From IMG/VR virus record IMGVR_UViG_3300020469_003050, positions 278,608-342,607 of that record: a DNA stretch of 64,000 bases; one strand, given 5' to 3'. The position numbers and the translations under genes are program-made. The number at the start of each line of letters is the position of its first letter. Position 1 is the stretch's first letter. The DNA comes from a virus. Shown piece after piece: positions 2,604 through 16,314 of this stretch. The notes below the pieces were generated by a model. That model had not been told where the DNA came from, ran no database searches, and saw only the letters and a program-made list of their open reading frames with translations.

Positions 2604-2611
2604 TAGATGTT

Positions 2612-2879
2612 AACGTTGAAGCAAGTTCAACACTATACAGGACCTGGGGGCAGTACCCAGCAGGTCCACCATAAACACATTATCAGTTTGCATTAGTGTG
2701 TTTATGATGGGCCTGAACTAGGATCGACTGGTGGTTAATAGGCGAGTGGAGTTAACCGAGTGACTTCGTTATTGGTCAAACACTATAATTGCAAACGACA
2801 ATTATCAGCCAGAAATGGCAATGGCGGCCTAATTTAGGCACGTAGGGGTTGGTGACTTGCCTGGCAACAGAAAAGTCAC
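2612..2879 (+). ncRNA. ssrA: Circularly permuted (two-piece) tmRNA
   Basis: tmRNA rescues stalled ribosomes and tags the nascent chain for proteolysis. The 3' acceptor half comes first: a T-arm CTGGG/CCCAG, then CAGGTCC and encoded CCA ending at 2671. After a 37-base spacer that folds back (TAAACACA / TGTGTTTA), the coding half starts at 2709 with GGGCCTG, which pairs with CAGGTCC over seven bases (one G-U). The tag frame at 2791-2832 encodes ANDNYQPEMAMAA and stop. The permuted order and an ANDN tag are typical of alphaproteobacteria. A hairpin GTGACTT/AAGTCAC (2852-2879) closes the coding half. Exact processed ends are inferred. The phage also encodes ClpX (12572), whose host counterpart degrades tagged proteins. 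Confidence 0.93.
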
Positions 2880-2908
2880 ATTTTTATTTGGGAGTGGGTT
2901 TTTTGTAA

Positions 2909-3247
2909 ATGGCATACGTAGTAACGCAAGATTGTATAAAATGTAAGTATACTGATTGTGTGGAAGTTTGTCCCGTTGATTGCTTTTATGAGGGCAAAGA
3001 TACTTTAGTTATTAACCCAGATGAATGTATAGATTGCGGTGTTTGTGAACCCGAATGTCCTGCAGAAGCAATAATTCCTGATACGCATGAAAAATTTACA
3101 ATGCGACTCTACGATATAAATAAAAAGTGGTCAGAACAATGGCCAGTAATTACAGAAAAGCAAGATCCCTTACCTGATGCTGATTCACTAAATCCAGCAA
3201 TGGGATATTCAGAAGATAAGACAAAGTTGTTAGATGAATACGATTGA
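2909..3247 (+). CDS. fdxA: 7Fe ferredoxin (FdxA type)
   Basis: 112 residues, the usual FdxA length. Cysteines at 9, 17 and 50 fit a 3Fe-4S cluster; 21, 40, 43 and 46 fit a 4Fe-4S cluster, as in the Azotobacter FdI family. The motifs CPVDCFYEG and [12 protein letters not shown] are diagnostic. It is a soluble low-potential electron carrier. It lies directly behind the tmRNA. A ferredoxin-NADP reductase at 43995 could be its partner, which is inference. Confidence 0.93.
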
Positions 3248-4133
3248 TGATACTATCTGGAATGAAAGAGGCTGGGAATCAGTTACTTTATCTTCATTTA
3301 ATCAGTATAAAGAAATAACAACAAAAGCCGATACAATATCAAAACAAACTACTTGGATTTATAAAGCAACTTTATTAGATATTTGGGAAAATATACGAGG
3401 AGTTAAAACTTTTTATAAATCACTTGACAATTCTTTCAGACAAAATATTGACGAACTATTTGCTAAAGGCAATAAAGTTTGGAGTAATGCAGAATGGCTA
3501 CAAGAATATTATGCACCTGCTGATTGTTCTTTAGCAGACCATTTGTTAACAAGAATGAGTGCTATGCATTATATGTTAGAAGAATTAAGAAATGGTGGAA
3601 AGATTAATGACCCTATAAGTTGTTGTTGGTACCCAGATTGGTATATGCCAGGTATACCCGCTGAAAGACAAAAAGTAGAATTACAAAAAATTAAGAAACT
3701 TTATAAAAGTTCGGTTGGTAGATTTTTTATGCATCCTGGAACTACTAGGATATATCTAGCAGGAGTATATAAAGAAGAAGTCGATGTAATTATAACAGAT
3801 TACTCAAATGGAGAATTATATAATCTTTTTCCACAACCTGAAAAACTAAAACATATAAATGATGCCAAAGAGTTTGATGTAACAGGTAGAACGTTATATT
3901 TCTGTTACTCAGGATCTAAATCTCCTTCTCTTAATAAAGGTGACATAATATCGCCACGTACTCATATTAAAGATAAGTACAGAGAGTTATACGATGATAC
4001 TGTAAGAACTAAATTACAATCACCAGGTAATAAAGTTCCTCCTGAGTTTTACGAAAAAAAGAATAATGAAATATTAGTAAATGGAAAAGTAGTATTAAGA
4101 TGTAGTAATAATTTATGGGAATTAGTTTTATGA
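3234..4133 (+). CDS. Hypothetical protein, first of a tandem paralogous pair
   Basis: 299 residues. It shares with the next gene an HPGTTR-type block, a [11 protein letters not shown]-type block, a C-terminal VNGKVVL segment and the ending LWELVL. It is rich in aromatic and charged residues with no signal peptide. It overlaps the ferredoxin gene by 14 bases. No known family recognised; the paralogy is visible by eye. Confidence 0.7.
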
Positions 4134-4927
4134 AGGAACCTATAATTGTTCATTGGGGTAATAACTATATAAATGTTGAAGATTATCAAACCAATGATTG
4201 TAAAATAAATGATTGGGAACATTTTGTTGCTTTAACTAATCAAGCAGATGCGATTTCTAAAACTAAGACTTTTATATATAAAGGTTCTATAAGTTCAGTA
4301 GTAAAAGACTTATTGAAATGGGGTGACGATTATGATGAATATTCATCGCATAGATTTAGTCAAGAAATCGAAATGTTGTTTAGAAAATCAGATAAAGTTT
4401 TAAGTAATCAAGTTGGTCCAATTAAAAGTACAAAAATAAATGCATTTGATTACATACTTGAAACCTTCAGAAAAGGATATACAATTATGGATCCACTTAA
4501 TCTTCATTATTTTGGAAACGGTAAACTTACACCACACCCAGGTTATACTAGATTATTGTTTGGAAAGTTATACACAATGAATATTAATTGTATAATATAT
4601 GATTACACTAATGGAAAATTTGTGCAAGATTTTAAAGACATAAATATCTTTACACCAGACGAAACAAACTTTGATATTAGTGAAAGAAGATATATGTTTA
4701 GTCACACAGGACAAACTAAAAAACCTAAACAGATACATAAAATGTCTGGCAAGAAAAATGGAGTTAAGTATAGAGAAGTTAATGGCAAAGATCCAATTCC
4801 AAAAGAATTGGGAGATCCTAGATTATATAATCCTCCAAAAATATATATAAAACAAAATAATTTAGTAACAGTAAATGGTAGGAAAGTACTTAAAAACAAT
4901 AATGGACTTTGGGAGTTAGTATTATGA
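4130..4927 (+). CDS. Hypothetical protein, second of a tandem paralogous pair
   Basis: 265 residues from ATG 4130, which overlaps the previous stop as ATGA. It carries the matching blocks HPGYTRLLFGKLY, YDYTNGKF, VNGRKVL and the same ending LWELVL. The upstream copy is longer in the middle, so the pair has diverged by insertion or deletion. Function unknown. Confidence 0.7.
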   Translation: MKEPIIVHWGNNYINVEDYQTNDCKINDWEHFVALTNQADAISKTKTFIYKGSISSVVKDLLKWGDDYDEYSSHRFSQEIEMLFRKSDKVLSNQVGPIKSTKINAFDYILETFRKGYTIMDPLNLHYFGNGKLTPHPGYTRLLFGKLYTMNINCIIYDYTNGKFVQDFKDINIFTPDETNFDISERRYMFSHTGQTKKPKQIHKMSGKKNGVKYREVNGKDPIPKELGDPRLYNPPKIYIKQNNLVTVNGRKVLKNNNGLWELVL

Positions 4928-5475
4928 TAATGACTAAAAAAGATTATGGTTATCCTGTTTGGGTAGTTGAAGAAGTATTTGAAACTAATGTGGCAGATGA
5001 TGTATTAAGACAATCAAAAGATTTACCATTTGTTCCAATGGAAGGCAAGAGAACAGATAAAACAGGTAAAAGAAATTGGATGAATCAATATAAAGGCAAA
5101 GAATGGAATTCATTTGAAGAAGTATGTTTATTGTTTGATAGTAAATATATGAAAAAAAAGTTTAGTGACGTTTGTGAAAAAGACTTTACTAACTTAGGTA
5201 CAAGAATAGAATTATGCAAAGATGCAAAAGGAAGTTGGTTGCACAATCACTTTGACGATAAAGCAAAGTTATTTACTTTACAGATTTACTTAACAGACAC
5301 AGATACAAGTACAAGTTTTATGAAGAAAGATACTCCTGCAAGAAAAAATACAGGTTGGTTCTTTGCAAATACAGGAACTGAACTTCATGGACTAAGTGCT
5401 TTGACACAAAATAGAATAAGCATCATTGTTAACTATTGTGATGAATCATGGAGAGATAGGTCTGTAATTGTATGA
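4924..5475 (+). CDS. 2OG-Fe(II) oxygenase family protein
   Basis: 183 residues from ATG 4924 (ATGA overlap); ATG 4930 is also possible. The iron-binding pattern is visible: HxD-like NHFDDKA near residue 118, a distal His in ELHGL, and an Arg in QNRISI that would bind 2-oxoglutarate. Such enzymes hydroxylate proteins, nucleic acids or small molecules and are frequent in marine T4-like phages. The substrate is unknown. Confidence 0.75.
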   Translation: MIMTKKDYGYPVWVVEEVFETNVADDVLRQSKDLPFVPMEGKRTDKTGKRNWMNQYKGKEWNSFEEVCLLFDSKYMKKKFSDVCEKDFTNLGTRIELCKDAKGSWLHNHFDDKAKLFTLQIYLTDTDTSTSFMKKDTPARKNTGWFFANTGTELHGLSALTQNRISIIVNYCDESWRDRSVIV

Positions 5476-6194
5476 GATATAAAAATAGTAATCAAAGAAC
5501 TAAAGACTATCTAGCTAGATTTGACAAAAATAAAGTTTTACAAAACTTGGTAGGTACGGATACGCCTGTAATTTTAGATATTGGTGCTAACATTGGTCAA
5601 ACTGTAGAAAAGTTAAAGATTATATGGGAGAATGCAGTAATACATTCTATAGAGCCTTTACCAGAAGCATATCAGGAACTATACTTAACGAAGGGCATAA
5701 TGTCAGATGTATATGTGTATAATCATGCTCTAGGCTCAGTAAATGGTTGGCAAGAGTTTAATGTCAATAAACATCAACCTATGCTTAGTGGTTTCTATAA
5801 GCTAAATGAGAATAGCAAAGATAGTATTGCTATCAATAAACCCGAAAAGGCACATAAGAACTTCTTAGAATCTGAACCCACACAGATACCTGTTATGACA
5901 TTAGATACGTTTACAAAGCAACATAACATAGAAAATATAGACATAATTAAGATGGACGTTCAAGGTGCTGAGCCTGAAATACTAGAACATGGTATTGAAA
6001 CATTAAAAAATACACGAATCGTTCTTACCGAACTATCACTATATGATTTGTACGAAAAGCAGTGTAGTTTCTATGATATAGAAAAAACGTTGATTCCCTT
6101 GGGTTTTGAATTATATGATGTTGCTCATGTCAGCAAAAATCCAATGAATGGTCGTACAGATTGGGTTGATTTAATTTATTTGAAAAAAAGTTAA
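5472..6194 (+). CDS. FkbM-family methyltransferase
   Basis: 240 residues. SAM-binding motif I is VILDIGANIGQT, followed by the acidic IEPLPE and the FkbM-typical LDTF and IIKMDVQGAEPEIL blocks. FkbM enzymes O-methylate sugars or other metabolites, in phages often linked to glycan modification. It is the last gene before a promoter and an orphan RNA, overlapping the oxygenase by four bases. Confidence 0.85.
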   Translation: MRYKNSNQRTKDYLARFDKNKVLQNLVGTDTPVILDIGANIGQTVEKLKIIWENAVIHSIEPLPEAYQELYLTKGIMSDVYVYNHALGSVNGWQEFNVNKHQPMLSGFYKLNENSKDSIAINKPEKAHKNFLESEPTQIPVMTLDTFTKQHNIENIDIIKMDVQGAEPEILEHGIETLKNTRIVLTELSLYDLYEKQCSFYDIEKTLIPLGFELYDVAHVSKNPMNGRTDWVDLIYLKKS

Positions 6195-6202
6195 AAAAAG
6201 GG

Positions 6203-6231
6203 TTGACTTTCCCGAATCATTATGCTATATT
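6203..6231 (+). promoter_or_regulatory. sigma70-type promoter of the 6.2-kb RNA
   Basis: TTGACT 6203-6208, TATATT 6226-6231, spacing 17. The spacer contains CGAATCAT, a relaxed form of the CGAATCGTG element shared with promoters at 38628, 59129, 61700 and 61918. Confidence 0.75.
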
Positions 6232-6237
6232 AATAAA

Positions 6238-6551
6238 CATAAGCATAAAACAATTTAGCGGTTGTTTTATTGTAGTGCAAGGAAGAGGCTGTTACCAGAC
6301 GGTCGAACTTGACTAGTTAGGGGTGGTACCCAGGCTTAAAGCTGAGAGGCTAAGAGTCACATCGTTCTACCGAACGGAACTAGGTTCCCTGGATTCAGAA
6401 TGGTATCTGTGTCGAGGGGTTGGGGGTGTAACCAAGTCCCTCCTACTTTGCTTATATTTCTGATTGCAATACCAAGCAATCAAAATTAAGAGACGGTTAG
6501 CAAACCATATTTTACTCACTTTCATTTCATATTGCTAACTGTCTCTTTTTT
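6238..6551 (+). ncRNA. Orphan structured RNA of unknown class
   Basis: A gene-free stretch of about 300 bases has its own promoter and ends in a long terminator hairpin. It is richer in G and C than its surroundings. Local helices include GGAAC/GTTCC around 6380, CGTTC/GAACG around 6364, CTTA..TAAG around 6335 and GAGGG..CCCTC around 6415-6443 enclosing GGTT/AACC. No open frame of note. It lacks the conserved blocks of RNase P RNA, SRP RNA and tmRNA. It could be a phage regulatory RNA or a large ornate RNA. Confidence 0.6.
6489..6551 (+). terminator. Intrinsic terminator
   Basis: AGAGACGGTTAGCAA (6489-6503) pairs with TTGCTAACTGTCTCT (6532-6546), 15 pairs with one G-U, and a T run follows. 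The loop is unusually long, 28 bases. It ends the orphan RNA just before the convergent minus-strand gene. Confidence 0.85.
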
Positions 6552-7245
6552 ATTTCTCTCCAATTATAGATTTTATTTTCCAAGGTGTAAAGCATACAGT
6601 ACCTAAACTTATGTGGTCTGCTCCTGCATCTATATAAGTCTGAGCATCTTCTTTAGAATATACTCCACCACCTGCTATGACTTCTACGTGAGGATACTTA
6701 TCTTTTATATAAGCAATAGTCCCCAAGGTATAGGGTTGAAGAATCTTTCCAGAAAGCCCACCCTTTTCACTGTGTAATGTGTTACTTGCATGAATTTGTT
6801 TATATCCTTTATCTACTATTTTATCTATTAATTTATGTTTTGCAGTTGGAGGTATTTTAACTATACACCATTTATTCTGCATATGTTCTGGAAACTTATC
6901 GAAACCTTCAAATGTCGTAGTGTCTTCATGTGAATCTAAGTTAGGACAACTTATATTTAATTCTATATTTCTAACACGACTAATAGTTGTTCTTATTGTT
7001 TCCCAATCTGATTTTTCTATGGCCGCAAGTGATAACAAATTATCATATGATGTCTTCATCATTCCAGCACGTAATCCAGGATTGCGTAAACCTAATTTGT
7101 TTCTCCAACCCTGTTTAGTATATCTTAATGTTTTGATTATTTGTTTTAGTCTTCCTGGTCTTGGTTCTACTGTCCAGGTACCTGTAACACTAACTGTATC
7201 TTTAAAGTTGAGATAGTTTCCAAATGGTGCGGCTATAAAAAACAT
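6550..7245 (-). CDS. Dihydroorotate-dehydrogenase-like FMN protein (short)
   Basis: 231 residues, against about 300-340 for PyrD. The C-terminal two thirds match the TIM-barrel FMN core: NISCPN, HASNTLHSEKGGLSGKIL and the phosphate-binding VIAGGGVYSKEDAQTYIDAGADHISLG split over the last strands. The N-terminal strands are missing; the protein begins near the VTGTWTVEPRPGR block. If active it would oxidise dihydroorotate for pyrimidine synthesis. A related FMN oxidoreductase is possible. A TATAAATA late promoter lies 20 bases upstream. Confidence 0.7.
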   Translation of the reverse strand: MFFIAAPFGNYLNFKDTVSVTGTWTVEPRPGRLKQIIKTLRYTKQGWRNKLGLRNPGLRAGMMKTSYDNLLSLAAIEKSDWETIRTTISRVRNIELNISCPNLDSHEDTTTFEGFDKFPEHMQNKWCIVKIPPTAKHKLIDKIVDKGYKQIHASNTLHSEKGGLSGKILQPYTLGTIAYIKDKYPHVEVIAGGGVYSKEDAQTYIDAGADHISLGTVCFTPWKIKSIIGEK

Positions 7246-7266
7246 TTATTATTTTCCTCATAAAAC

Positions 7267-7274
7267 TATTTATA
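7267..7274 (-). promoter_or_regulatory. T4-type late promoter (minus strand)
   Basis: Reads TATAAATA on the minus strand, about 21 bases before the start of the dihydroorotate-dehydrogenase-like gene. Confidence 0.7.
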
Positions 7275-7279
7275 TAAGA

Positions 7280-8101
7280 TTATTTCTTATCTAGTGCAGA
7301 AATCATCCTAGTCATTCCAATTCCTCCACCAACTCTTGGGAAGAAATCAAATTCTAAGAATTTTTCTAGTTCTGCTTCTACTCTTTCTTTAGAAAATAGT
7401 TTGTACAATAATTCTGAGTATTCACCATTTGTTATTGTGTGAAAAGTATCTCTCATCATTTCTACATCACATGAACGTTCTGCGGATCCAATAGTTTCCA
7501 TTCCACCTAAGATAACATCTATCTTCTTACTAGTTGCACCGCCTTCATTTCTGCTCATATTCCAGAACGGAGATGTCATTTCAGGAAAATCTGTAATCAT
7601 TGTTGAACCGAATTCTTCAAACATTTTAGTTTCATGTTCTGCTTCCATTTCTACTGTTGGTTCTAAGTTGTAATGTTTTTGCCAATCAGCATATGTTCTT
7701 TCTTCTGGTTTAGGGAACTCTAAGTATTCACATAGTTCGTATTCCATCTTTTTCAAATCATCAATGTCACCTGGCATTTCAAATTCAAACATTGGGAAGA
7801 TAATATCGTGTCTACCTGGAATTGCATTTGGCTCTTGTCTATAGGACGTGGAGACACAAAAAAAGCCCTTTGTATCGGGCTTTGAGAGTAATTCGTGTTC
7901 TAACCACATTTGGCCTGTTTGGGGAAGCGGCCAGACTTGGCCTGCGTAATTGTATGTTGCTACATTGAACGGGTCTTCACATGCCGCCAATATAGATAAT
8001 CTGTTTTGGGTATGGACTTCTAAAAATCCTTTATCCAAAAAAAATGACCTTAAAAGGCCAACTGTTCTTGTAAATTTATCCGGAGATATTAATTGTGTCA
8101 T
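7280..8101 (-). CDS. Class II aminoacyl-tRNA-synthetase paralogue, probable asparagine synthetase
   Basis: 273 residues from the ATG at 8101, chosen because AAGGAA precedes it; an earlier in-frame ATG at 8125 lacks a site. It has the class II catalytic core: motif 2 TSYRQEPNAIPGRHDIIFPMFEFEM split across the ATP loop, and motif 3 GGGIGMTRMISAL. No anticodon-binding domain is present. This matches stand-alone AspRS/AsnRS paralogues such as the archaeal asparagine synthetase that amidates aspartate. The residue choice could also fit another amide-forming role. It is transcribed towards the dihydroorotate-like gene. Confidence 0.7.
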   Translation of the reverse strand: MTQLISPDKFTRTVGLLRSFFLDKGFLEVHTQNRLSILAACEDPFNVATYNYAGQVWPLPQTGQMWLEHELLSKPDTKGFFCVSTSYRQEPNAIPGRHDIIFPMFEFEMPGDIDDLKKMEYELCEYLEFPKPEERTYADWQKHYNLEPTVEMEAEHETKMFEEFGSTMITDFPEMTSPFWNMSRNEGGATSKKIDVILGGMETIGSAERSCDVEMMRDTFHTITNGEYSELLYKLFSKERVEAELEKFLEFDFFPRVGGGIGMTRMISALDKK

Positions 8102-8175
8102 TTTCTTTTCCTTTTTGTTATCCAAAAAAAAATATAGCCAAAAAAAAATTTGGTATTCGTTTTTGATGTTGTTTT

Positions 8176-8183
8176 TATTTATC
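8176..8183 (-). promoter_or_regulatory. T4-type late promoter (minus strand)
   Basis: Reads GATAAATA on the minus strand, about 75 bases ahead of the asparagine-synthetase-like start, in a very A+T-rich tract with two A9-type runs. Confidence 0.55.
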
Positions 8184-8255
8184 TTTTTTATTTAAAAAGT
8201 TATCAACAATTCAATTAAAAATTGTATTGATTTCATATCTATTTTGTGTTACATT

Positions 8256-8263
8256 TATAAATA
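8256..8263 (+). promoter_or_regulatory. T4-type late promoter
   Basis: Perfect TATAAATA, about 95 bases before the phosphate permease. It implies late expression with a structured leader. Confidence 0.65.
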
Positions 8264-8285
8264 TGAAAGTAACAATGAGGTTACA

Positions 8286-8339: not shown

Positions 8340-8358
8340 AAGCAGAAGGAGATAAAAA

Positions 8359-9321
8359 ATGGATGCACTCACCCTATGGATGGCAATAGGATTTCTATTT
8401 GCCGCATATTCAGTAATCGCAAACGATTCAGTACAAACTCTTGGTACTTGGATTGCATCAAATAACGAAAAATTTAATTGGAAGATAATGTGGGGAGCCG
8501 CAAGTGCGGTACTGCTTTATACTTTGTGGTATGGTTGGACAACTAATGGCGGAGATATTAGTTACGGACGATTAAACAAAATTCCATTTCAAGAAATACA
8601 ATGGTATCATGCCGCCGCACCAGGCTTACTATTGATATTAACAAGAATAGGTGTACCAGTAAGTACAAGTTTCTTAGTGCTAAGTGCATTTGCTAGTACG
8701 TTTGTATTAGAGAAGATGCTAGTCAAATCAATGATGGGTTATGCAGTTGCGGCTGTGGCGGCATATGTAATCTGGATTGGTGTTACTAAAATACTTGATG
8801 AAGCAAAACCAGTCGCTGAAAATCATAAAATGTATTGGCGAGTAGGTCAGTGGGTAACAACTGGCTTTTTATGGTTTACTTGGTTATCACATGATATGGC
8901 AAACATTGCCGTATTCTTACCAAGACAAATCCCATTTGATTTAATGGTAATGGTAAGTGCAGTATTTGTATTTGGCTTAGGTTATATATTTTATACTGGT
9001 GGTGGTAAAATACAAAACATCGTAATTGAAAAACATAACACACGTTATGTAAGAAGTGCTACAATAATTGATTGTGTATATTTTCTAATTCTTTGGTTCT
9101 TCAAAGAACTGAATGATATACCAATGTCAACAACTTGGGTATTCGTAGGATTACTTTGTGGTCGTGAACTTGCTATGGCAACTATTACAGGTAAAGAAAA
9201 GTTTAAAACTGTTTTCCCTCTTGTAACTAAAGACTTCATAAAGATGATGATTGGTTTAGGTGCAAGTGTTGGTGTAGTCTTATCTATTCACTATATAATT
9301 GTTCCCAACGGTTTACACTAA
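8359..9321 (+). CDS. Compact inorganic phosphate permease (PiT/PHO4 family)
   Basis: 320 residues with about nine membrane segments. The two family signature repeats are visible in altered form: IANDSVQTLGT near residue 20 and LSHDMANIAVFLP near residue 180, corresponding to the GANDVANxxGT blocks that bind phosphate. Bacterial PiT proteins are usually longer; short forms occur in archaea and viruses. It would import phosphate with H+ or Na+ at the host inner membrane, useful in phosphate-poor sea water. Its own late promoter and terminator make it a single-gene unit. Confidence 0.75.
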   Translation: MDALTLWMAIGFLFAAYSVIANDSVQTLGTWIASNNEKFNWKIMWGAASAVLLYTLWYGWTTNGGDISYGRLNKIPFQEIQWYHAAAPGLLLILTRIGVPVSTSFLVLSAFASTFVLEKMLVKSMMGYAVAAVAAYVIWIGVTKILDEAKPVAENHKMYWRVGQWVTTGFLWFTWLSHDMANIAVFLPRQIPFDLMVMVSAVFVFGLGYIFYTGGGKIQNIVIEKHNTRYVRSATIIDCVYFLILWFFKELNDIPMSTTWVFVGLLCGRELAMATITGKEKFKTVFPLVTKDFIKMMIGLGASVGVVLSIHYIIVPNGLH

Positions 9322-9324
9322 AAA

Positions 9325-9332
9325 GATAAATA
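9325..9332 (+). promoter_or_regulatory. Possible late promoter (GATAAATA)
   Basis: GATAAATA directly after the permease stop. The next 110 bases contain no gene and end in a terminator, so this could drive a short untranslated RNA, or be chance. Confidence 0.35.
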
Positions 9333-9445
9333 ACTTTATAGAACAAAACTAATAACTAAGTACGCATAGGATTATAAACAAAAGTATAAGTGTGTCGGAC
9401 ACTGCGTAACACATTCTGACATTCCACAAAACAAATTTATTGGAG

Positions 9446-9467
9446 CCCATTCTTCGGAATGGGTTTT
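9446..9467 (+). terminator. Intrinsic terminator with TTCG loop
   Basis: CCCATTC-TTCG-GAATGGG followed by TTTT. The extra-stable UUCG tetraloop makes this a confident terminator for the permease transcript or a short RNA. Confidence 0.85.
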
Positions 9468-9503
9468 CCATTTGTACCTGTGACATAAATGATAAATACA
9501 TAT

Positions 9504-10286
9504 ATGCGTTATTCAGATATTATAAACATCACATTTAACCAAACACTCAATGAAGCATTCGATGTCAATGAGGCAGGAGAAAGTGCGGAAAGACAAGAGA
9601 ATGGTTTTGTGAAAACAATAGCAGAAGCGATAGAACAGAATGGTGGTAAGCCTATTAAATTAATAGCAGGCGAAACTACTATTGATGGAGTAACCGGTGC
9701 AGTAAAATACACTGGTAGACAAGATTCAGGTTCAGAGCCATATACAGATATTGTACTTAAAACAAGTAAAGGTGATTTAAATCTTTCAATGAAAGGCCCA
9801 TCAGCACCATCATTAGCTGGCGGTGGGTTACGTGGTATTCAAGCAATTATACCAGATATCGGTGAAAACTTTTTTACTGCGGCCTATAAGAATTTATTAA
9901 ATAATGGTTACAAATCTGGAGATAAGATTCCAGATACAGTAGGTAAATTGAACGATAAGGACAAAATGTTACTTGTAGTTGGAACAAAGGCTATGGGAGG
10001 TCCTATAGATTATATGTATATTGGTCCAATGGACGTATCGCATGAACAAAAAGATAATACAGTAAAAGTCAATGGATCTTTATATACATCAAAGTACTAT
10101 GCAGAAAAGAAAGACTTATATTTCAGACTACGTGCTAGACGTATAGACCAGACGTTTGATGAGGACGCAAAATATAGTAATGGAATCCCTAAAATATATG
10201 GAAAATCACCATCAAAAGGTGATAGTGCAGGAAGACTTGTTATCACAGATAAGCCATCTTCTAAGGCATTAAAGATTATATTCTAA
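9504..10286 (+). CDS. Hypothetical phage protein, 260 aa
   Basis: The in-frame ATG at 9489 overlaps GATAAATA (9491-9498), so ATG 9504 is the better start; if that motif is the promoter the messenger would be almost leaderless. The sequence contains ETTIDGVTGAVKYTGRQDSG and KGDLNLSMKGPSAPSLAGGG, resembling phage proteins annotated as hypothetical or structural. No membrane segment or catalytic motif is seen. Confidence 0.6.
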   Translation: MRYSDIINITFNQTLNEAFDVNEAGESAERQENGFVKTIAEAIEQNGGKPIKLIAGETTIDGVTGAVKYTGRQDSGSEPYTDIVLKTSKGDLNLSMKGPSAPSLAGGGLRGIQAIIPDIGENFFTAAYKNLLNNGYKSGDKIPDTVGKLNDKDKMLLVVGTKAMGGPIDYMYIGPMDVSHEQKDNTVKVNGSLYTSKYYAEKKDLYFRLRARRIDQTFDEDAKYSNGIPKIYGKSPSKGDSAGRLVITDKPSSKALKIIF

Positions 10287-10399: not shown

Positions 10400-10933
10400 A
10401 TGAAAAAACTAATTGTAATGATAACTGGTGCAGTTATGCTATTCTCAAGTGTAGCAATGGCTAATGCACATCATATTAATAAAACTGTAAGAGTACAGGC
10501 AGAAGTTGTATCTTCTACTGCAATCACACAACAGGTAGTACAAAGAGTACCTGAGCAACAATGTACAGTTGTAGACGTACCTATCTATAGTACACAAAAC
10601 AATGCTACTACGGGTGACGTAATAGTAGGTGCTATTATTGGTGGTGCAATCGGTAATCAATTTGGTAAAGGTAAAGGTAACGATGCGGCGACAGTATTAG
10701 GCGCTATCATCGGTGCAGATTCAGTTAACAAAAAGAATAGTAGTAAAACTATTGTTGGTTACAAACAAGTAAATCAATGTAATACTATCTTTATCGAAAC
10801 AGTTGCAGACAAGATTGTAGGTTATACTACAACTATGAAAACTACTGAGGGCGAAACATATACGTTTCAAACTAGTTCTCAATATGCAGTTGGAACAATC
10901 GTATTCTTAAAAAAGCAAGTTTCACTAAACTAA
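10400..10933 (+). CDS. Glycine-zipper envelope protein with signal peptide
   Basis: 177 residues from ATG 10400; the earlier ATG at 10313 precedes the promoter. Signal peptide of about 23 residues ending MANA. The middle holds a glycine zipper (VGAIIGGAIGNQFGKGKG, then LGAIIGAD), like the SlyB/17-kDa antigen family of outer-membrane-associated proteins. It probably sits in the periplasm or outer membrane of the infected cell. It could alter the envelope, for instance in superinfection exclusion, which is inference. Confidence 0.7.
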   Translation: MKKLIVMITGAVMLFSSVAMANAHHINKTVRVQAEVVSSTAITQQVVQRVPEQQCTVVDVPIYSTQNNATTGDVIVGAIIGGAIGNQFGKGKGNDAATVLGAIIGADSVNKKNSSKTIVGYKQVNQCNTIFIETVADKIVGYTTTMKTTEGETYTFQTSSQYAVGTIVFLKKQVSLN

Positions 10934-10951
10934 ACATAACATAGAAGTTAA

Positions 10952-11003
10952 ATTCTCCTTCTTAATTAGATAAATACAGATGAGGTCTACTAAGAAGGAG
11001 AAT
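10952..11003 (+). promoter_or_regulatory. Ribosome-site-masking inverted repeat with late promoter in the loop
   Basis: ATTCTCCTTCTTA (10952-10964) is perfectly complementary to TAAGAAGGAGAAT (10991-11003), which includes the ribosome site AAGGAG. The late motif GATAAATA (10969-10976) lies between the arms. Read-through early RNA would fold and hide the ribosome site, while late RNA starting near 10982 lacks the first arm and is free. T4 uses this logic for lysozyme. Confidence 0.75.
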
Positions 11004-11006
11004 ATT

Positions 11007-12554
11007 ATGTTATTTCCAATTATTACCTTTGCTACGGCTATTGCGATTGCTTTTATAGCCGCGTGGTTTTCAATCGTCGGACTTATGGCGATTTTTGCCG
11101 CCTCAGCAATACCAGTAGCATTAATGGCAGGTTCACTTGAAGTCGGTAAATTAGTTGCCGCCTCATGGGTGTACCGTAATTGGAAGAGGGCTCCATTTCT
11201 ATTAAAATTTTATTTGACAATAGCAGTTGTCGTTTTGATGTTCATCACAAGCATGGGTATTTTCGGTTTCTTATCGAAAGCACACCTTGAACAAGCCGCT
11301 CAGGGAACGGCTAACGTGGCAAAGGTTGAACGTATTGACAACGATATTATCAGGTTTAATGCATTAATAGAACGTACTGAAATTAAAATAGCTAAACTTG
11401 AAAATGAAACTAGTGATGATTCATCTGATATCAATGCTCAGATTGATGCAGAGCAACAACGTATGGATAATGCGTATGCTCGTATTCAACCTGCTATTGA
11501 TGAGCAAATGGAAATCATTAGAGAAGAACAAAAAGGTTCTGATGAACAAGTAAAATCTTATACAGAACAAATTAATCGTATAGATGACCAGTTACAAAAG
11601 TTACAAACTTATGCTGATAACATCGAAGATGAAAATAATGTTAAGAAAATTCAGGCTATGATTGGTACAAAAGTAGATGGAAGATATGGATATCGTACTG
11701 CTGGCAAGGTTACTGATTTTATTGAGAAATCAAATGCTGAAAAACAGAAACTAATTGCTATTGTAGAAGATATTCGTAATTCAGTAAACACAGATATTAT
11801 CGACCAGGCACGTGAAGAAATCAAAAGACTACGTGCAATGGCAGACAGAGAAATACAAAATGCACAAGATAATATTAATCGTCTACGAAACGTCTTATCA
11901 CAAGTAGGAGAAATAGACAATACAGATGAAATCGATACTTTAGTTATAAAGGTGTCAGATACAGAGCAAAGAATCGAAGTTCTTTTAGATGAGAAGTTTG
12001 AAATTGAAAGCGAAGTTAGACAACTTGAAGCAGAAGTAGGACCAATAAAATATATAGCAGAACTAATATATGGAGAAACCAATCCCACTATTATTGATTC
12101 GGCTGTACGTTGGTTAATCATCGTGTTTATATTTGTTTTCGACCCATTGGCTGTTATATTATTGGTTGCGGCAAACTACAGTTTTGCTAATAGAAATAAC
12201 CATGAAAACAGACAACAAGAAATGTTTGATGGACTTTTTCACAGAAATGAAGAAAAAACGCTTGACAAAACGACCTCAATGAGCGATAATAAAGATATTG
12301 ATTTGGATACAGAAGAAGAAACTGTTGAAGAAATTAAAGATGAAATTAAAGATGAAAAAGAAACTGAAAACGTGGAAGTAGTTAAATCAGAAACTAAAAA
12401 GCCAGGTGGCGTATATTTAGATCCAGCTGAAATTGATTTAAAGAACATCGATGAGAAATCATTGAAAGAAATTAAATCGAAAGTAGAAAGAGAAATAAAT
12501 ACTAAAGCAGAGAAACGTTCTGGCTGGCTAGATGATTTAAACAATGGAAAATAA
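11007..12554 (+). CDS. Large coiled-coil membrane protein
   Basis: 515 residues from ATG 11007, six bases after AAGGAG. Three N-terminal membrane segments (about residues 1-22, 25-45 and 65-87) are followed by some 240 residues of coiled coil. A fourth membrane segment lies around residue 375 (WLIIVFIFVFDPLAVILLVAAN), then an acidic, low-complexity tail. Similar proteins are frequent in marine T4-like phages without a known role. Expression should be late because of the masked ribosome site. Confidence 0.75.
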   Translation: MLFPIITFATAIAIAFIAAWFSIVGLMAIFAASAIPVALMAGSLEVGKLVAASWVYRNWKRAPFLLKFYLTIAVVVLMFITSMGIFGFLSKAHLEQAAQGTANVAKVERIDNDIIRFNALIERTEIKIAKLENETSDDSSDINAQIDAEQQRMDNAYARIQPAIDEQMEIIREEQKGSDEQVKSYTEQINRIDDQLQKLQTYADNIEDENNVKKIQAMIGTKVDGRYGYRTAGKVTDFIEKSNAEKQKLIAIVEDIRNSVNTDIIDQAREEIKRLRAMADREIQNAQDNINRLRNVLSQVGEIDNTDEIDTLVIKVSDTEQRIEVLLDEKFEIESEVRQLEAEVGPIKYIAELIYGETNPTIIDSAVRWLIIVFIFVFDPLAVILLVAANYSFANRNNHENRQQEMFDGLFHRNEEKTLDKTTSMSDNKDIDLDTEEETVEEIKDEIKDEKETENVEVVKSETKKPGGVYLDPAEIDLKNIDEKSLKEIKSKVEREINTKAEKRSGWLDDLNNGK

Positions 12555-12571
12555 CAGAGAAAGTATAAACA

Positions 12572-13846
12572 TTGGCTGACAAAAAAGATTATCATTGTTC
12601 ATTTTGTGGGAAACATAAGAATGAAATTAGTACATTAATTGCAGGTCCTTCGACATTTATCTGTAATGAATGTATTGACCTATGTCACTCTATCGTATAT
12701 GAACGCAAGAATGTAACTAAAAAATCTAAAACTGTAAACAGTGACATTCCGACACCTGACGAAATTAATGAGTTTTTGAATGCTCATGTAATTGGTCAGG
12801 GAGAAGCTAAAGAAGTCCTGAGTGTGGCTGTTTACAATCATTATAAAAGAATTAATCAATCAGAAGATGATGATGTAGAGTTAGAGAAATCTAATGTTAT
12901 GATGCTCGGTCCTTCTGGTACAGGTAAAACACTCTTAGCAAAAACAATCGCAAAATTCTTAGATGTTCCTTTCGCACAAGTCGATGCAACTACATTAACA
13001 GAAAGTGGTTATGTAGGTGAAGATGTTGAAAACGTAATACAACGTTTACTTATGAATGCAGACTTTGAAATTAAGAAAGCAGAACAGGGTATTATCTACA
13101 TAGATGAGATAGATAAGAAAGCTAAAAAGGGTGAAAGTATTTCAATCACTAAAGATGTTAGTGGTGAAGGTGTTCAACAAGCCTTATTAAAAATTGTTGA
13201 AGGCACTGTTGTTCGTGTTCCGCCAGGTGGTGGGAGAAAACATCCAGGTGCTGATATGCTTGAAGTTAATACTGATAACATTTTATTCATTGTAGGTGGT
13301 GCATTTGTAGGACTTGATAAAGTAATCAAACGAAGATTGAATTCAAATGGTTCAATTGGTTTTGGTGCAAGAGTTATGGCACAAGATAGCAGTGATGATA
13401 TGACAGTATCACAAGAAGTGTTGCCAGAAGACGTAATTAAATATGGTATCATTCCAGAATTTATGGGTCGTTTTCCAATACTTGTAGGCATAGACGATTT
13501 AACTGAACGTGAGTTAAGTCGTATATTAACAGAACCTAAGAATAATTTAACTGCACAATTTAAGAAGATTTTTAAATTAGATGGTGTAGATTTAAATTTT
13601 ACTGAGGATGCAATAACAGAGATATCTAAAATAGCAAAAAAGAATAAGACTGGAGCAAGAGGTCTAAGAAGTGTTTTAGAAAAGTCATTGTTAAAATTAC
13701 AATTCAAATTACCTAAGCTATCAAAGAATGCTGGCTTAACGTCTGTTGAAATAACTGGTGACTTTATTAATAAAAATGCTGATCCAATTTTGGTATTTAA
13801 GGATGAAACAGAGGAAAATATAAACATTAATGAAAAGAAACTTTAA
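12572..13846 (+). CDS. clpX: ATP-dependent Clp protease unfoldase ClpX
   Basis: 424 residues, full length, TTG start. An N-terminal four-Cys zinc domain (CSFC..CNEC) is followed by the AAA+ core. Walker A is GPSGTGKT, the pore loop is GYVG, Walker B is IIYIDEID, the RKH loop is GRKHPG and sensor 2 is GARGLRS. The ClpP-docking IGF loop is intact (SIGFGARV). It unfolds proteins, including tmRNA-tagged ones, and feeds them to ClpP. No clpP is in the window, so host ClpP would be used. It forms a tight unit with IF3 and S21, overlapping IF3 by 17 bases. Confidence 0.96.
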   Translation: MADKKDYHCSFCGKHKNEISTLIAGPSTFICNECIDLCHSIVYERKNVTKKSKTVNSDIPTPDEINEFLNAHVIGQGEAKEVLSVAVYNHYKRINQSEDDDVELEKSNVMMLGPSGTGKTLLAKTIAKFLDVPFAQVDATTLTESGYVGEDVENVIQRLLMNADFEIKKAEQGIIYIDEIDKKAKKGESISITKDVSGEGVQQALLKIVEGTVVRVPPGGGRKHPGADMLEVNTDNILFIVGGAFVGLDKVIKRRLNSNGSIGFGARVMAQDSSDDMTVSQEVLPEDVIKYGIIPEFMGRFPILVGIDDLTERELSRILTEPKNNLTAQFKKIFKLDGVDLNFTEDAITEISKIAKKNKTGARGLRSVLEKSLLKLQFKLPKLSKNAGLTSVEITGDFINKNADPILVFKDETEENININEKKL

Positions 13847-14375
13847 AGATGAAAGAGGGCGAAAGCCTTTTATTATCGCTAACCAACGTATCCGTGCAGA
13901 CGAGTTACGTGTGGTAACAGACCAAGGTGAGCAACTTGGTATCATGCAAAAAAATCAAGCACAACAAAAAGCGGATGCTGACGGATTAGATTTAGTTCTT
14001 ATAGTTCCTAACGCCAATCCTCCTGTAGCAAAAATCATTAGTATAAATAAGTACAACTACGAAATCAAAAAACGTGAGAAAGAGAAGGCAAAACTAGCCA
14101 GACAAAATTCAGTTGAAGTTAAAGAAGTTAAGTTCAGACCAGCTATAGGCGAGAATGACCTAAAGATGAAACTTAACCAAGTTCAAAAGTTTATTGACAA
14201 AGGCAATAAAGTAAAAGTGACAATACAAATGAGGGGCAGGGAAAATGCAAAAGCTACAGAAGTTTTAGCATATTTCAATTCCCAAATCTCTGAATACTTG
14301 AGTAGTTTTAAGTATGACCTTCCTCTAAAAACTAACGGGAATAGAATAATAGGTGTAATAATAAAAAATGACTAG
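13830..14375 (+). CDS. infC: Translation initiation factor IF-3
   Basis: 181 residues, the normal bacterial length. The N-domain (RIRADELRVVTDQGEQLGI), the lysine-rich linker (YEIKKREKEKAK) and the C-domain (EVKEVKFRPAIGENDLKMKL, then MRGRE) are all complete. IF-3 binds the 30S subunit, blocks premature 50S joining and checks the initiator tRNA and start codon. It starts with ATG, unlike host infC genes that use ATT for self-control, so that feedback may be bypassed. It overlaps clpX and rpsU. Very unusual for a phage. Confidence 0.95.
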   Translation: MKRNFKDERGRKPFIIANQRIRADELRVVTDQGEQLGIMQKNQAQQKADADGLDLVLIVPNANPPVAKIISINKYNYEIKKREKEKAKLARQNSVEVKEVKFRPAIGENDLKMKLNQVQKFIDKGNKVKVTIQMRGRENAKATEVLAYFNSQISEYLSSFKYDLPLKTNGNRIIGVIIKND

Positions 14376-14634
14376 TTACAATAATAGTTATAGAAACAAA
14401 AATAATAGAAATGATTTTTCACAAACAGGTAAATCAGGTCTAACAGTAGAAGTAAGAAACGGGCAGTTTGAAAGAGCATTAAGAAAGTTCAAAAAGAAAG
14501 TGCAAGAAGCAGGTATCATACAGGAAGTACGAGACAGAAAGGCTTATGTTAAACCAAGTGAAGTTAAACGTAAGGCTAGGGACGCCGGAAAAAAACGTTG
14601 GTACAGAAAAATGAAAATGCAGGAACTAGAATAA
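14368..14634 (+). CDS. rpsU: 30S ribosomal protein S21
   Basis: 88 residues. The S21 core starts around residue 24 (LTVEVRNGQFERALRKFKKK) and continues through EVRDRKAYVKPSEVKRKARD to a basic tail; the 20-residue Asn-rich leader is extra. S21 sits near the anti-Shine-Dalgarno end of 16S RNA and affects start-site choice. Phage S21 genes are known from Pelagibacter phages and jumbo phages. Here it is coupled to IF-3, so both act on initiation. A terminator follows directly. Confidence 0.93.
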   Translation: MTSYNNSYRNKNNRNDFSQTGKSGLTVEVRNGQFERALRKFKKKVQEAGIIQEVRDRKAYVKPSEVKRKARDAGKKRWYRKMKMQELE

Positions 14635-14665
14635 AAAAGGGGAACCTAAGTCCCCCTTTTAATCT
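14635..14665 (+). terminator. Intrinsic terminator of the clpX-infC-rpsU unit
   Basis: AAAAGGGG (14635-14642) pairs with CCCCTTTT (14653-14660). The A and T flanks mean it can act in both directions, also ending the convergent gene at 14683. Confidence 0.8.
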
Positions 14666-14682
14666 TAATAATTATGTCTCTA

Positions 14683-15000
14683 TTAGAACAAATGATTATC
14701 AGAGAATTCTTCAAAGATAGGTTGACTATCAGCAAATCCTTGCATTTGAGTACCGATAGCAGTTTCAATAGCATTCATAGTTTCGTTGTTTGGATAAACA
14801 ACTGTAATCATGCCTTCAAACTTATCAGCAGTCAATTCTTCTTTGTATTTTGTAGCATCATTCAAATCAATACCGTTATCAGAAAGAATTGTTCTCATAA
14901 GGTTGTAATATGAACTGTAGCTATTCTCAGAAATCAGTTGAGCATTATCGTCATATTGTTTCACAATATGTGGATAAAATACTTTTGTTTCTTTAATCAT
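14683..15000 (-). CDS. Hypothetical protein, 105 aa
   Basis: Preceded on the minus strand by AGGAGG and by a GATAAATA late motif. The protein is soluble and acidic with an aromatic N-terminal half (YSSYYNLMRTIL) and no known motif. The good ribosome site and late promoter make it a real late gene. Confidence 0.65.
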   Translation of the reverse strand: MIKETKVFYPHIVKQYDDNAQLISENSYSSYYNLMRTILSDNGIDLNDATKYKEELTADKFEGMITVVYPNNETMNAIETAIGTQMQGFADSQPIFEEFSDNHLF

Positions 15001-15037
15001 AATAGGTGGCCTCCTAAAGTCTGTTTGATTATACTGT

Positions 15038-15045
15038 TATTTATC
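15038..15045 (-). promoter_or_regulatory. T4-type late promoter (minus strand)
   Basis: GATAAATA on the minus strand, about 38 bases before the gene ending at 14683. Confidence 0.65.
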
Positions 15046-15068
15046 AAAATTAAAATAAGGATTGTGAA

Positions 15069-15314
15069 TTGGATATAGATTTAGACAAATTATCACTAAG
15101 AGAACTGCAACAAGAAAGCACCAGAGCATTGCTTACGCAGGACGGAACTAGTGTAGGTATCTCAAAATACAACAAAAAAGCTAATCATAATAGTCAATTA
15201 TGGTACAAAGCAGTACTTGAAGACTATATTGAGAAATATGGTGGTTTACCTCGTGATGCAGGCCCATCTAAGGGAATTGTACTTTTTTCAGAAAAACTTG
15301 ATAAAGGCACTTGA
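15069..15314 (+). CDS. Hypothetical protein, 81 aa
   Basis: Starts at TTG 15069 with AAGGATT a few bases ahead. Charged and soluble, with SLRELQQESTRALL then a basic patch. Not recognised. Its last codons overlap the promoter of hsp20. Confidence 0.5.
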   Translation: MDIDLDKLSLRELQQESTRALLTQDGTSVGISKYNKKANHNSQLWYKAVLEDYIEKYGGLPRDAGPSKGIVLFSEKLDKGT

Positions 15315-15368
15315 CATTTGGAAAAAAATCACTATATTATAATATATGCATAAAATTATGCATAAATA
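15311..15368 (+). promoter_or_regulatory. Promoter region of hsp20
   Basis: TTGACA 15311-15316 with an AT-rich -10 at about 15333-15343 (TATATTATAAT). Downstream, CATAAATA at 15361-15368 resembles a late promoter next to the inverted repeat TATGCATAAAATTATGCATA. Confidence 0.6.
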
Positions 15369-15432
15369 ACTGTGTAGATTGCTTTAGATAGGATCTACAT
15401 TTAAATTAACTTGCTTAATAAAGGAGTAAACA

Positions 15433-15876
15433 ATGACAAACGGACTATCTATTTTTAACCAGTTACGACCTGTAACTGTAGGCTTTGACAACATGTTTGA
15501 CCACTTTGAACGTATGTTCGATGGCGATGTTGCAACATTTCAAACTCAAGTAAACTTCCCACCTTACAATATCGTAAAGACTGGAGATTTCACTTATGAT
15601 GTAGAACTAGCATTAGCTGGATTCTCAAAAGATGATATTACAGTTGACTATGCTGATAACATTTTGACGGTTAAATCTGTTAAGAAAGAAAAATCAGATG
15701 ATGATAAAGACGGTGTTCTTCACAGAGGTATCTCTAAAAGAATGTTCTCTAAAGCATTCACTATTGCAGATGATGTTGAAGTGAAAGGTGCAGAGTTGAA
15801 AGACGGGTTACTGAAAATATCTTTAGAACGTATCGTTCCAGAAGGTAAGAAGCCTCGTAATATCGAAATATCATAA
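15433..15876 (+). CDS. Small heat-shock protein Hsp20 (IbpA type)
   Basis: 147 residues with a complete alpha-crystallin domain: YNIVKTGDFTYDVELALAGF at its start and the ADNILTVKS and LKDGLLKISLER strands. The terminal motif is reduced. It holds unfolding proteins in the infected cell for refolding or proteolysis. Hsp20 is a core gene of marine T4-like phages. AAGGAG precedes the start; a terminator follows. Confidence 0.92.
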   Translation: MTNGLSIFNQLRPVTVGFDNMFDHFERMFDGDVATFQTQVNFPPYNIVKTGDFTYDVELALAGFSKDDITVDYADNILTVKSVKKEKSDDDKDGVLHRGISKRMFSKAFTIADDVEVKGAELKDGLLKISLERIVPEGKKPRNIEIS

Positions 15877-15894
15877 AATATTTCTAATCAAAAT

Positions 15895-15924
15895 AAAAGC
15901 GAGGGATTCGTTCCTCGCTTTTTT
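15895..15924 (+). terminator. Intrinsic terminator of hsp20
   Basis: AAAAGCGAGG / CCTCGCTTTT with an 8-base loop and T6. Confidence 0.9.
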
Positions 15925-15937
15925 ATATAAAAATCAC

Positions 15938-15977
15938 TTGATAAATTCCTTTATAAATGCTATAATACAGATAAATA
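15938..15977 (+). promoter_or_regulatory. Tandem sigma70 and late promoters of clpS
   Basis: TTGATA 15938-15943 and TATAAT 15961-15966 (17-base spacing), followed directly by GATAAATA at 15970-15977. Expression in both phases is likely. Confidence 0.7.
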
Positions 15978-15999
15978 CTATAGACAGTGAGGAAAATAA

Positions 16000-16314
16000 A
16001 TGCACGTACAAAACGATAGTGAAACAGTAGTTGATGCATCTACTAGGACTTCAATAGAACCTCCTAAGAGATATTATATTGTTATGCATAATGATGATTC
16101 AACTCCTATAGATTTTGTAGTAAAGGTGTTAATCGAACTGTATAAACACGAAGACCAAACGGCGGCTGACCTAGCAAATAAAATTCACATAGATGAAAAA
16201 GCTATTGTCGGCATGTTCAATTTAGAAATAGCAGAACAGAAGGTGGAAGAGACTCACGGAACAAGTAGGGCGCATGGTTACCCATTAACGGTAACATTAG
16301 AACAAGCAGATTAA
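16000..16314 (+). CDS. clpS: ClpS N-degron adaptor
   Basis: 104 residues, full length. The N-degron pocket is intact: NDD in VMHNDDSTPIDFV and the His in KIHIDEKAIVG. The family-typical EIAEQKVEETHGTSRAHGYPL follows. ClpS delivers proteins with N-terminal Leu, Phe, Tyr or Trp to ClpA of the host ClpAP protease. Together with phage ClpX it suggests redirection of host proteolysis. No clpA is in the window. Confidence 0.94.
   Translation: MHVQNDSETVVDASTRTSIEPPKRYYIVMHNDDSTPIDFVVKVLIELYKHEDQTAADLANKIHIDEKAIVGMFNLEIAEQKVEETHGTSRAHGYPLTVTLEQAD

Follow-up and report, generated by a model that had tools for sequence, protein, structure and literature searches.

A conserved viral gene island of ClpX, ribosomal protein S21 and ClpS in a jumbo phage that also carries tmRNA and ClpP

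A conserved arrangement of translation and proteolysis genes was identified in a marine jumbo phage, wherein the gene for memCC, a membrane protein containing an extended coiled coil, leads those for the unfoldase ClpX, IF3, ribosomal protein S21, the small heat-shock protein Hsp20 and the N-degron adaptor ClpS. What is new here is that dozens of viruses, only distantly related to one another, keep this order as a fixed gene island, a recurrence that suggests a joint role for the core genes. The conserved gene order likewise argues that the translation and proteolysis parts belong together. We give an even chance to the reading that the phage encodes a tag-and-degrade system plus factors that remodel the 30S subunit, through which ribosomes and amino acids would be recycled. 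Unless given for the full record, coordinates refer to the window, which is the whole analysed stretch of 64,000 nucleotides, and all features located within it lie on the + strand.

The record (342,607 bases, or 342.6 kb) represents a bacteria-infecting, T4-like jumbo phage, one of a clade of large phages of that type. Genes for terminase, portal, major head protein and tail sheath are present, and the contig ends carry an exact direct repeat of 93 bases, by which the contig is apparently complete. These structural genes and the terminal repeat rule out a bacterial chromosome or a chimera, and bear out the view expressed in an earlier note on this DNA that the segment is phage-borne.

The tmRNA (2609..2882) is of the two-piece (permuted), alphaproteobacterial type, with the acceptor and T-arm half located 5′ of the tag half. 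Two Rfam families match it above their cut-offs, namely alpha_tmRNA (RF01849; 122.6 bits at 2560-2882, cut-off 50) and tmRNA_permuted (RF04321; 114.4 bits at 2609-2832, cut-off 47). From this tmRNA type only, we infer that the host would be alphaproteobacterial. The RNA has the G3:U70 pair of alanine identity, a CCA end, paired acceptor and T stems, and a tag frame (2791..2832) that ARAGORN predicts to encode ANDNYQPEMAMAA and a stop, the tag end being of the degron type. Across the tmRNA copies compared, the G3:U70 pair is kept in all 19 testable ones, the T-stem is wholly paired, with covariation, in 21 of 21 copies, and a comparison of tags found [L/M]AA at the ends of 18 of 19 distinct ones. 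The sequence also reveals a sigma-70-type promoter at 2573..2601 (TTGACA at 2573-2578, a 17-base spacer, TATAAA at 2596-2601). There are 17 perfect −35 sites genome-wide, that of the tmRNA included, versus 2.9 in shuffled sequences, and the same promoter lies upstream of the tmRNA in 13 of 20 relatives. Given the invariant G3:U70 pair, the covarying stems, the tag ends and this promoter, the phage tmRNA looks functional. A T4-type late promoter, TATAAATA, was considered and rejected, since genes are not preceded by TATAAATA more often than by its letters in other orders, and the copy at the tmRNA is the −10 region of the sigma-70 promoter kept in relatives. The tag has the ordinary bacterial ending, which host ClpXP would read as well.

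The clpX gene (12572..13846) uses a TTG start. Its product scores 571.6 bits against an NCBIfam equivalog model (cut-off 359), also matches Pfam zf-C4_ClpX, and on alignment with ClpX from the PDB exhibits the C4 zinc finger, Walker A and B motifs, and GYVG, RKH and IGF loops. A motif count over 52 distinct ClpX loci found the GYVG pore motif in 50, the zinc finger and ATPase motifs in the great majority, and an IGF-type docking loop in most. As an origin of clpX, recent capture from a host was rejected, since the best bacterial matches, mostly from Firmicutes, are just 51-56% identical; the scan that returned them was biased by short patterns, and they therefore do not settle the donor lineage. 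The gene overlaps by 17 bases with infC (13830..14375), whose IF3 product has both domains (Pfam IF3_N and IF3_C) and scores 145.1 bits against TIGR00168 (cut-off 60). An overlap of 8 bases joins infC to rpsU (14368..14634), coding for an S21 protein of 88 aa (TIGR00030; 61.6 bits, cut-off 29) whose Pfam Ribosomal_S21 domain is above cut-off. Compared with the sequences of relatives, it has an N-terminal extension and is without the C-terminal -LY present in many of them. A terminator-like (intrinsic) hairpin with a T-run follows in the sequence at 14634..14663. With its two overlaps and this hairpin, the ClpX-IF3-S21 segment is indeed the coupled unit that had been described.

The hsp20 and clpS genes are units apart from clpX-infC-rpsU. 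Hsp20 (15433..15876; Pfam, 63.3 bits) has its own terminator-like hairpin in the 3′ sequence, and clpS (16000..16314) is preceded by a promoter-like site (TTGATA, 17 bases, TATAAT; 15938..15966). ClpS scores above the Pfam cut-off (83.3 bits) and under the strict NCBIfam cut-offs, and its N-degron pocket, located through a PDB alignment (E. coli N34, D35, T38, H66), has N, D, T and H invariant in 35 of 35 phage relatives. Outside the window, a profile match and motifs identify ClpA (record 14634-16850), which scores 902 bits to TIGR02639, below the strict cut-off of 993, and has Clp_N, two AAA+ modules with both Walker A motifs, an IGF loop and no ClpB middle domain; the ClpP-docking IGF loop is present in all five phage ClpA proteins. 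ClpP (record 167039-167635; PF00574, 259.5 bits; NF001368, above cut-off) is likewise outside the window, as is a second, ClpP-like protease (record 251669-252310), and the catalytic Ser-His-Asp is intact in 17 of 17 phage ClpPs. The degradation part of the earlier proposal is thus strengthened, in that neither ClpX nor ClpS has lost its functional residues and the same genome adds ClpP and ClpA, although these two are ~60-125 kb distant from the island, measured on the circle. All seven genes of the kit (tmRNA, ClpX, IF3, S21, Hsp20, ClpS and a GroES-like protein) are real by Rfam, NCBIfam or Pfam scores, and are where they had been placed. They do not form a single cluster, however, because ~8 kb of unrelated genes lies between the tmRNA and memCC-clpX, while hsp20 and clpS stand apart.

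The order memCC-clpX-(infC)-rpsU-hsp20-clpS is kept in 39 of the 52 distinct ClpX loci, at ClpX identities of 43-100%; these loci were gathered via ClpX and are therefore uninformative on islands without it. The adjacency of clpX, infC and rpsU, for which a search of viral databases had been suggested, thus recurs in other viruses, with infC included in 20 of the 39 island-bearing lineages, a share that led us to reject IF3 as a core part. Other neighbouring genes each occur in at most 2 of the 19 most divergent loci, and no structural gene lies within the island. The island genes co-diverge, with distance correlations (0.73-0.96) as high as none obtained in 999 permutations, and these correlations reflect joint inheritance, not joint function. 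All five island-bearing records longer than 300 kb carry tmRNA, ClpA and ClpP along with ClpX-S21-Hsp20-ClpS.

The leading gene, memCC (10980..12554), was characterized with an alignment of 30 relatives and an AlphaFold model (mean pLDDT 72), and an alternative ATG at 11008 agrees with the starts of relatives. Neither PHROG nor fold searches gave an informative match, the latter yielding nothing more specific than generic coiled coils and phage proteins that lack a name. Weak peptidoglycan-binding matches fall within the coiled coil of some members, and elsewhere the gene neighbours a glucosaminidase (Pelagibacter phage Mosig) or lies near lysis genes (Flavobacterium phage immuto). A role as a ClpX adaptor is unsupported, as memCC occurs without adjacent ClpX in Xanthomonas phage XacN1, Stenotrophomonas phage RAS14 and Mosig. 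It is conceivable, but highly speculative and in our judgement very unlikely, that the conserved ‘GWL’ C-terminal tail of memCC brings phage ClpX to the membrane together with ribosome-bound S21, such that rescue, tagging and ClpP degradation would share one early phage-built compartment and the island would be an ancient dedicated viral machine.

Searches of the whole phage genome found no SmpB, even at E<=1, and no SspB, Aat or GroEL. The phage is therefore not self-sufficient for trans-translation, having no SmpB alongside its tmRNA, and with SmpB and SspB missing the tag-and-degrade circuit is not closed. Among island-bearing records SmpB is found only in G027, one of the five longer than 300 kb, where it lies ~140 bases from the tmRNA. 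The earlier note’s assertion that the phage rebuilds three steps of the host protein cycle at once is overstated, given that SmpB is missing here and IF3 is missing from half of the island-bearing lineages. Its inclusion of GroES at 55.8 kb is correct as to the gene (55797..56120; Pfam Cpn10, 38.0 bits, cut-off 21.1) but not as to kit membership. The protein also matches PHROG 931 (head morphogenesis; 45.4 bits), and by its Cpn10 fold, this family assignment and the lack of a phage GroEL it is most likely a T4 gp31-type co-chaperonin for the head protein, probably outside the rescue and degradation kit.

Our best reading of the sequences is that the tag-and-degrade circuit would be nearly closed given host SmpB. 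Host RNA polymerase would transcribe the tmRNA early from its consensus sigma-70 promoter, and the tmRNA, with host SmpB and host AlaRS, would free ribosomes stalled on host messengers under destruction and add a peptide ending in MAA to the stalled products. Phage ClpX and ClpA would dock via their IGF loops on phage or host ClpP, leading to degradation of the tagged fragments, while ClpS would deliver N-degron substrates to ClpAP and Hsp20 would hold unfolded substrates. IF3 and S21, on the same messenger as ClpX, may steer freed 30S subunits to phage messengers, and the net gain would be ribosomes and amino acids recycled to the benefit of a large phage whose host is slow and nutrient-poor. 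The sequence itself establishes the genes with their intact functional residues, the promoter, the coupling, the gene order, and the tag and identity elements of the tmRNA; we infer the joint action of the parts, its timing and its purpose. The distance of ClpA and ClpP from the island and the tmRNA’s having its own promoter count against a recycling circuit, in that co-regulation of the parts does not follow from this layout. Moreover, the timing of the parts may differ, given an early-looking tmRNA promoter and the late expression of bS21 in other jumbo phages (PMC9723584). That phage tmRNA tags host proteins early so as to recycle amino acids was proposed independently (PMC9004378), and here the protease half sits in the same genome. 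If the circuit works in this manner, one virus supplies both the tagging RNA and the destroying protease, and thus both ends of ribosome rescue, and the protein-recycling idea (PMC9004378) becomes directly testable, as there are cultured relatives (Sinorhizobium phages Phosso and AP-J-162, Salicola phage SCTP-2). On rational grounds, the conserved island also makes a connection of S21 with ClpX worth seeking, and it draws attention to memCC, an unstudied membrane protein found in their company.

Other explanations deserve consideration. It is possible, though rather unlikely, that the island aids late phage protein production and the tmRNA is a separate, early and unrelated acquisition, wherein ClpX, Hsp20 and ClpS would act on misfolded and surplus structural proteins of the phage, remodelling or clearing them, and S21 (and IF3) would favour late messengers. 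According to Chen 2022 (PMC9723584), phage bS21 is expressed late and located near head genes with Hsp20 and Clp genes close by; a virion assembly role was also suggested by the authors describing phage Atu_ph07 (PMC6102473), and the tmRNA lies outside the island, and searches of some ClpX-bearing relatives (e.g. G011) did not find it. However, the island is without any structural gene, the near-complete island-bearing genomes retain tmRNA, ClpA and ClpP in five of five cases, and an N-degron adaptor with an intact pocket fits degradation, not folding.

Degradation could instead be turned by ClpX, ClpA and ClpS onto chosen host regulators or defence proteins, as Iyer 2021 proposed for jumbo-phage ClpP and ClpS (PMC7824862). 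The divergence of phage ClpX and ClpS from the bacterial proteins (51-56% for the best ClpX matches) leaves room for new specificity, but we consider such host takeover or counter-defence improbable: both ClpS, in its degron-reading residues, and ClpX, in its pore loops, are of the standard kind and so give no sign of new specificity, and the tmRNA tag ends in an ordinary bacterial degron. That the genes are spare versions of host housekeeping genes which buffer infection stress without forming a circuit would accord with every gene being known singly in jumbo phages, and with the wide gathering of translation and chaperone genes by such phages (PMC7162821, PMC7824862). Yet order and strand are fixed down to 43% ClpX identity while the surroundings are wholly turned over, a pattern that random hoarding would not produce, and we judge the spare copies decidedly improbable.

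Comparable sets had been described piece by piece in other giant phages, and the earlier note’s remark that this set was not known must be withdrawn, as most of it had appeared in the descriptions of Atu_ph07 (2018) and AP-J-162 (2024). Agrobacterium phage Atu_ph07 was reported with ClpX, ClpA, ClpP, ClpS and DnaJ as a set (PMC6102473), and its ClpX adjoins IF3; unlike in our phage, the genes are scattered, and a tmRNA was looked for and not found. Sinorhizobium phage AP-J-162 has a tmRNA, six Clp proteins, clpX adjoining IF-3, S21, Hsp20, DnaJ and GroES (PMC11242549). Sinorhizobium phage Phosso (PV764938) has adjacent clpX and infC, tmRNA, ClpP and ClpA, but the tight island is absent, as memCC was not found 5′ of clpX and S21 is ~7 kb away. 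Al-Shayeb 2020 listed IF3, S21, tmRNA and SmpB for huge phages (PMC7162821). For freshwater phages, Chen 2022 (PMC9723584) reports Hsp20 (127 genomes) and Clp genes (50 and 47) within 10 genes of bS21, which in contrast to our island lies beside terminase, capsid and portal genes, and its available part describes no fixed ClpX-S21-Hsp20-ClpS order, IF3 or tmRNA. Mosig and methylophage Melnitz share the two-piece alpha-type tmRNA (PMC9004378), and an early-promoter, amino-acid-recycling hypothesis was already put forward for that of Melnitz (PMC9004378). Mosig, whose memCC homologue is without adjacent ClpX (and ClpX is unmentioned in the text of PMC9004378), has a tmRNA tag ending in ALAA. In Salicola phage SCTP-2 (MF360958), the S21 gene product (gp193) is annotated as hypothetical. 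That phage differs from ours in being without IF3 and without Hsp20 between S21 and ClpS, but its memCC (gp195), ClpX (gp194), S21 (gp193) and ClpS (gp192) follow one another in the same order.

The window covers bases 278,608-342,607 of G000, a 342,607-base IMG/VR virus record whose first 93 bases are identical to its last 93. Assembling a genome that is circular, or circularly permuted, leaves such ends, and a gene's absence is then meaningful, though not proof. Because it encodes a terminase, a portal, a major head protein and a tail sheath along with recombination genes of the T4 type, we place this genome among the T4-like myoviruses. These genes together with the repeated ends lead us to reject the bacterial chromosome or chimera that the earlier note had named as its refuting case.

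The tmRNA, ClpX, IF3, S21, Hsp20, ClpS and GroES-like protein named in that note are real: the tmRNA exceeds the Rfam thresholds and the proteins those curated in Pfam, with ClpX, IF3 and S21 also exceeding those of NCBIfam. The tmRNA belongs to the alphaproteobacterial type, being circularly permuted and made of two pieces. The coupling proposed for clpX, infC (IF3) and rpsU (S21) also stands, since the three genes overlap and are then followed by a terminator-like hairpin. The hsp20 gene ends in a hairpin, a TTGATA-17-TATAAT site belongs to clpS, and both genes are predicted to be separate transcription units. Although all these genes share a region, unrelated genes fill the 8 kb from the tmRNA downstream to clpX and the membrane coiled-coil protein gene (memCC) preceding it, and thus the proposed 14-kb kit is not an operon. 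The GroES-like protein, originally counted with the kit, is most likely a head chaperonin of the T4 gp31 type and is left out of it here.

Scanning IMG/VR for ClpX yielded 68 loci which, with Sinorhizobium phage Phosso included, collapsed to 52 at 95% ClpX identity. In 39 of these 52 distinct loci, memCC is located directly before clpX and rpsU after it, all on one strand. The gene infC, whose adjacency to clpX and rpsU the earlier note suggested searching for, is present in 20 of the 39. The complete order memCC-clpX-(infC)-rpsU-hsp20-clpS, hereafter the island, is found in 35 loci, and the other four reach a contig end. When each window gene within ~10 kb was searched for in the same 39 loci as a control, memCC, ClpX and S21 were recovered in 39/39, Hsp20 in 36 and ClpS in 35, while every other neighbour gene occurred in at most two of the 19 most divergent loci. 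Distances between lineages agree from one island gene to another (r 0.73-0.96, a level reached by 0 of 999 permutations), so these genes have moved through the lineages as a group.

Alignment of 30 memCC relatives reveals a conserved N-terminal membrane part containing GIFGFLSKAHLEQ, followed by a coiled coil whose length varies. After this come a return segment that is likewise conserved (GPIKYIAE...FDPLAVLLLIAAN) and a disordered tail, which in most members ends in a Trp-Leu motif. The AlphaFold model (mean pLDDT 72, pTM 0.34) consists of long helices and offers no reliable fold, and no informative relative was found in PHROGs, BFVD or PDB. An envelope role is suggested by weak peptidoglycan-binding matches, seen in some members, and by neighbours such as the glucosaminidase gene in Pelagibacter phage Mosig. 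A simple ClpX adaptor is argued against by the occurrence of memCC without ClpX beside it.

IF3 and S21 act in 30S initiation, and the C-terminal end of E. coli S21 lies near the anti-Shine-Dalgarno region. Given that S21 of the G000 clade (window 14368-14634) is without the C-terminal -LY that many other phage S21s retain, start-site choice may differ.

Ribosomes that stall are freed by tmRNA-SmpB, which adds a degron for ClpXP or ClpAP, and ClpS brings N-degron substrates to ClpAP. Elsewhere in G000 we identified ClpA (G000:14634-16850; 738 aa, with Clp_N and two AAA+ modules), directly preceded by a J-domain protein gene, and ClpP (G000:167039-167635), which has a sigma-70-like site 40 bases upstream. 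A further ClpP-like protease, proline-rich at its N-terminus (G000:251669-252310, or 11669-12310 of sequence piece L013), is found in many relatives, and its alignment shows Ser, His and Asp preserved at the catalytic positions; this protease could be either a ClpP partner or a separate enzyme. A peptide deformylase gene is situated just before the window, and no SmpB, SspB, L/F-transferase Aat or GroEL was found in G000.

Judged by their conserved residues, the proteolysis parts look active. The catalytic triad is intact in 17/17 phage ClpPs, 5/5 ClpAs have both Walker A sites as well as the IGF loop for docking on ClpP, and all 35 ClpS proteins share the N-degron residues N, D, T and H. Among the 52 ClpX loci, 50 carry the GYVG pore loop, most an IGF-type loop, and the great majority the zinc finger and AAA+ motifs. 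The sequence thus shows the parts, their intact residues, the promoter and the gene order, whereas the cooperation of these parts, its timing and purpose, and the host are inferred. The ClpA of another island-bearing record (G021:212900-216700, sequence piece L210) carries an in-frame insertion of ~350 aa near the second Walker A site, which matches LAGLIDADG homing endonucleases and, weakly, Hint domains, and is probably an intein.

A permuted tmRNA occurs in 23 of 42 ClpX-bearing records, 20 of which were compared together with Mosig. All 21 have a fully paired T-stem that shows compensatory changes, and the 19 tmRNAs whose acceptor 5' strand could be placed all carry the G3:U70 alanine identity pair. 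The 19 distinct tags end in Ala (penultimate Ala in 18) with Leu or Met third from the end in every case, and are otherwise variable. The RNA thus looks functional. Upstream, TTGACA/TTGACT and TATAAA/TATAAT separated by exactly 17 bases (13/20) form a host-polymerase promoter, and expression would then probably be early; G000 holds 17 perfect -35 sites with such a layout versus 2.9 in shuffled sequence.

Additional cargo was observed. The manA RNA motif (Rfam RF01745, 59.8 bits) lies at window 6254-6452, a stretch that also matches Mosig at 75%. Window 7280-8125 (minus strand) encodes a 281-aa class II tRNA-synthetase catalytic core of the D/K/N type, which falls short of a full synthetase and is possibly an asparagine-synthetase-like paralogue. 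TctC-like (as read from the sequence) and TctA tricarboxylate transporter genes and a full-length, 948-aa PutA-type proline dehydrogenase/aldehyde dehydrogenase (window 17915-20489 and 46676-49522) are an uncommon load for a phage and would suit the catabolism of amino acids in infected cells. By eye, G000:32209-34097 and 47198-47578 encode two A-type iron-sulfur carriers, a J-domain HscB-like protein and an IscU-like scaffold, seemingly a partial iron-sulfur assembly set, and radical-SAM and glycosyltransferase-like proteins occur in extended series at G000:96-112 kb and 134-147 kb.

The gene set had been proposed as new, yet the literature already contains its individual parts and a large share of the combination. 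In the literature searched, which excludes most subscription journals and all preprints, we found no account of the fixed island or of memCC as its member, nor of how consistently tmRNA, ClpA and ClpP occur alongside it. Parts of the set are covered by work on huge phages (PMC7162821), a jumbo-phage overview (PMC7824862), and papers on bS21 neighbourhoods (PMC9723584) and marine two-piece tmRNAs (PMC9004378). Phage Atu_ph07 encodes ClpX, ClpA, ClpB, ClpP, ClpS and DnaJ (PMC6102473), and AP-J-162 a tmRNA, six Clp proteins and clpX adjoining IF-3, S21, Hsp20 and GroES (PMC11242549). One survey places tmRNA in ~2% of phage genomes (PMC9004378); all five island-bearing records above 300 kb (G000, G013, G021, G027 and G036) encode permuted tmRNA, ClpP and ClpA. 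Genome size and kinship confound this comparison, which is offered as a lead. In G027, SmpB lies ~140 bases from the tmRNA. Outside the island-bearing clade, one-piece tmRNAs accompany ClpP and ClpX in phage G and, with SmpB, in the virus record G025. The cultured Salicola phage SCTP-2 carries memCC-ClpX-S21-ClpS, where gp193 (9314-9607 of sequence piece L186), annotated as hypothetical, is S21 (E 8e-23).
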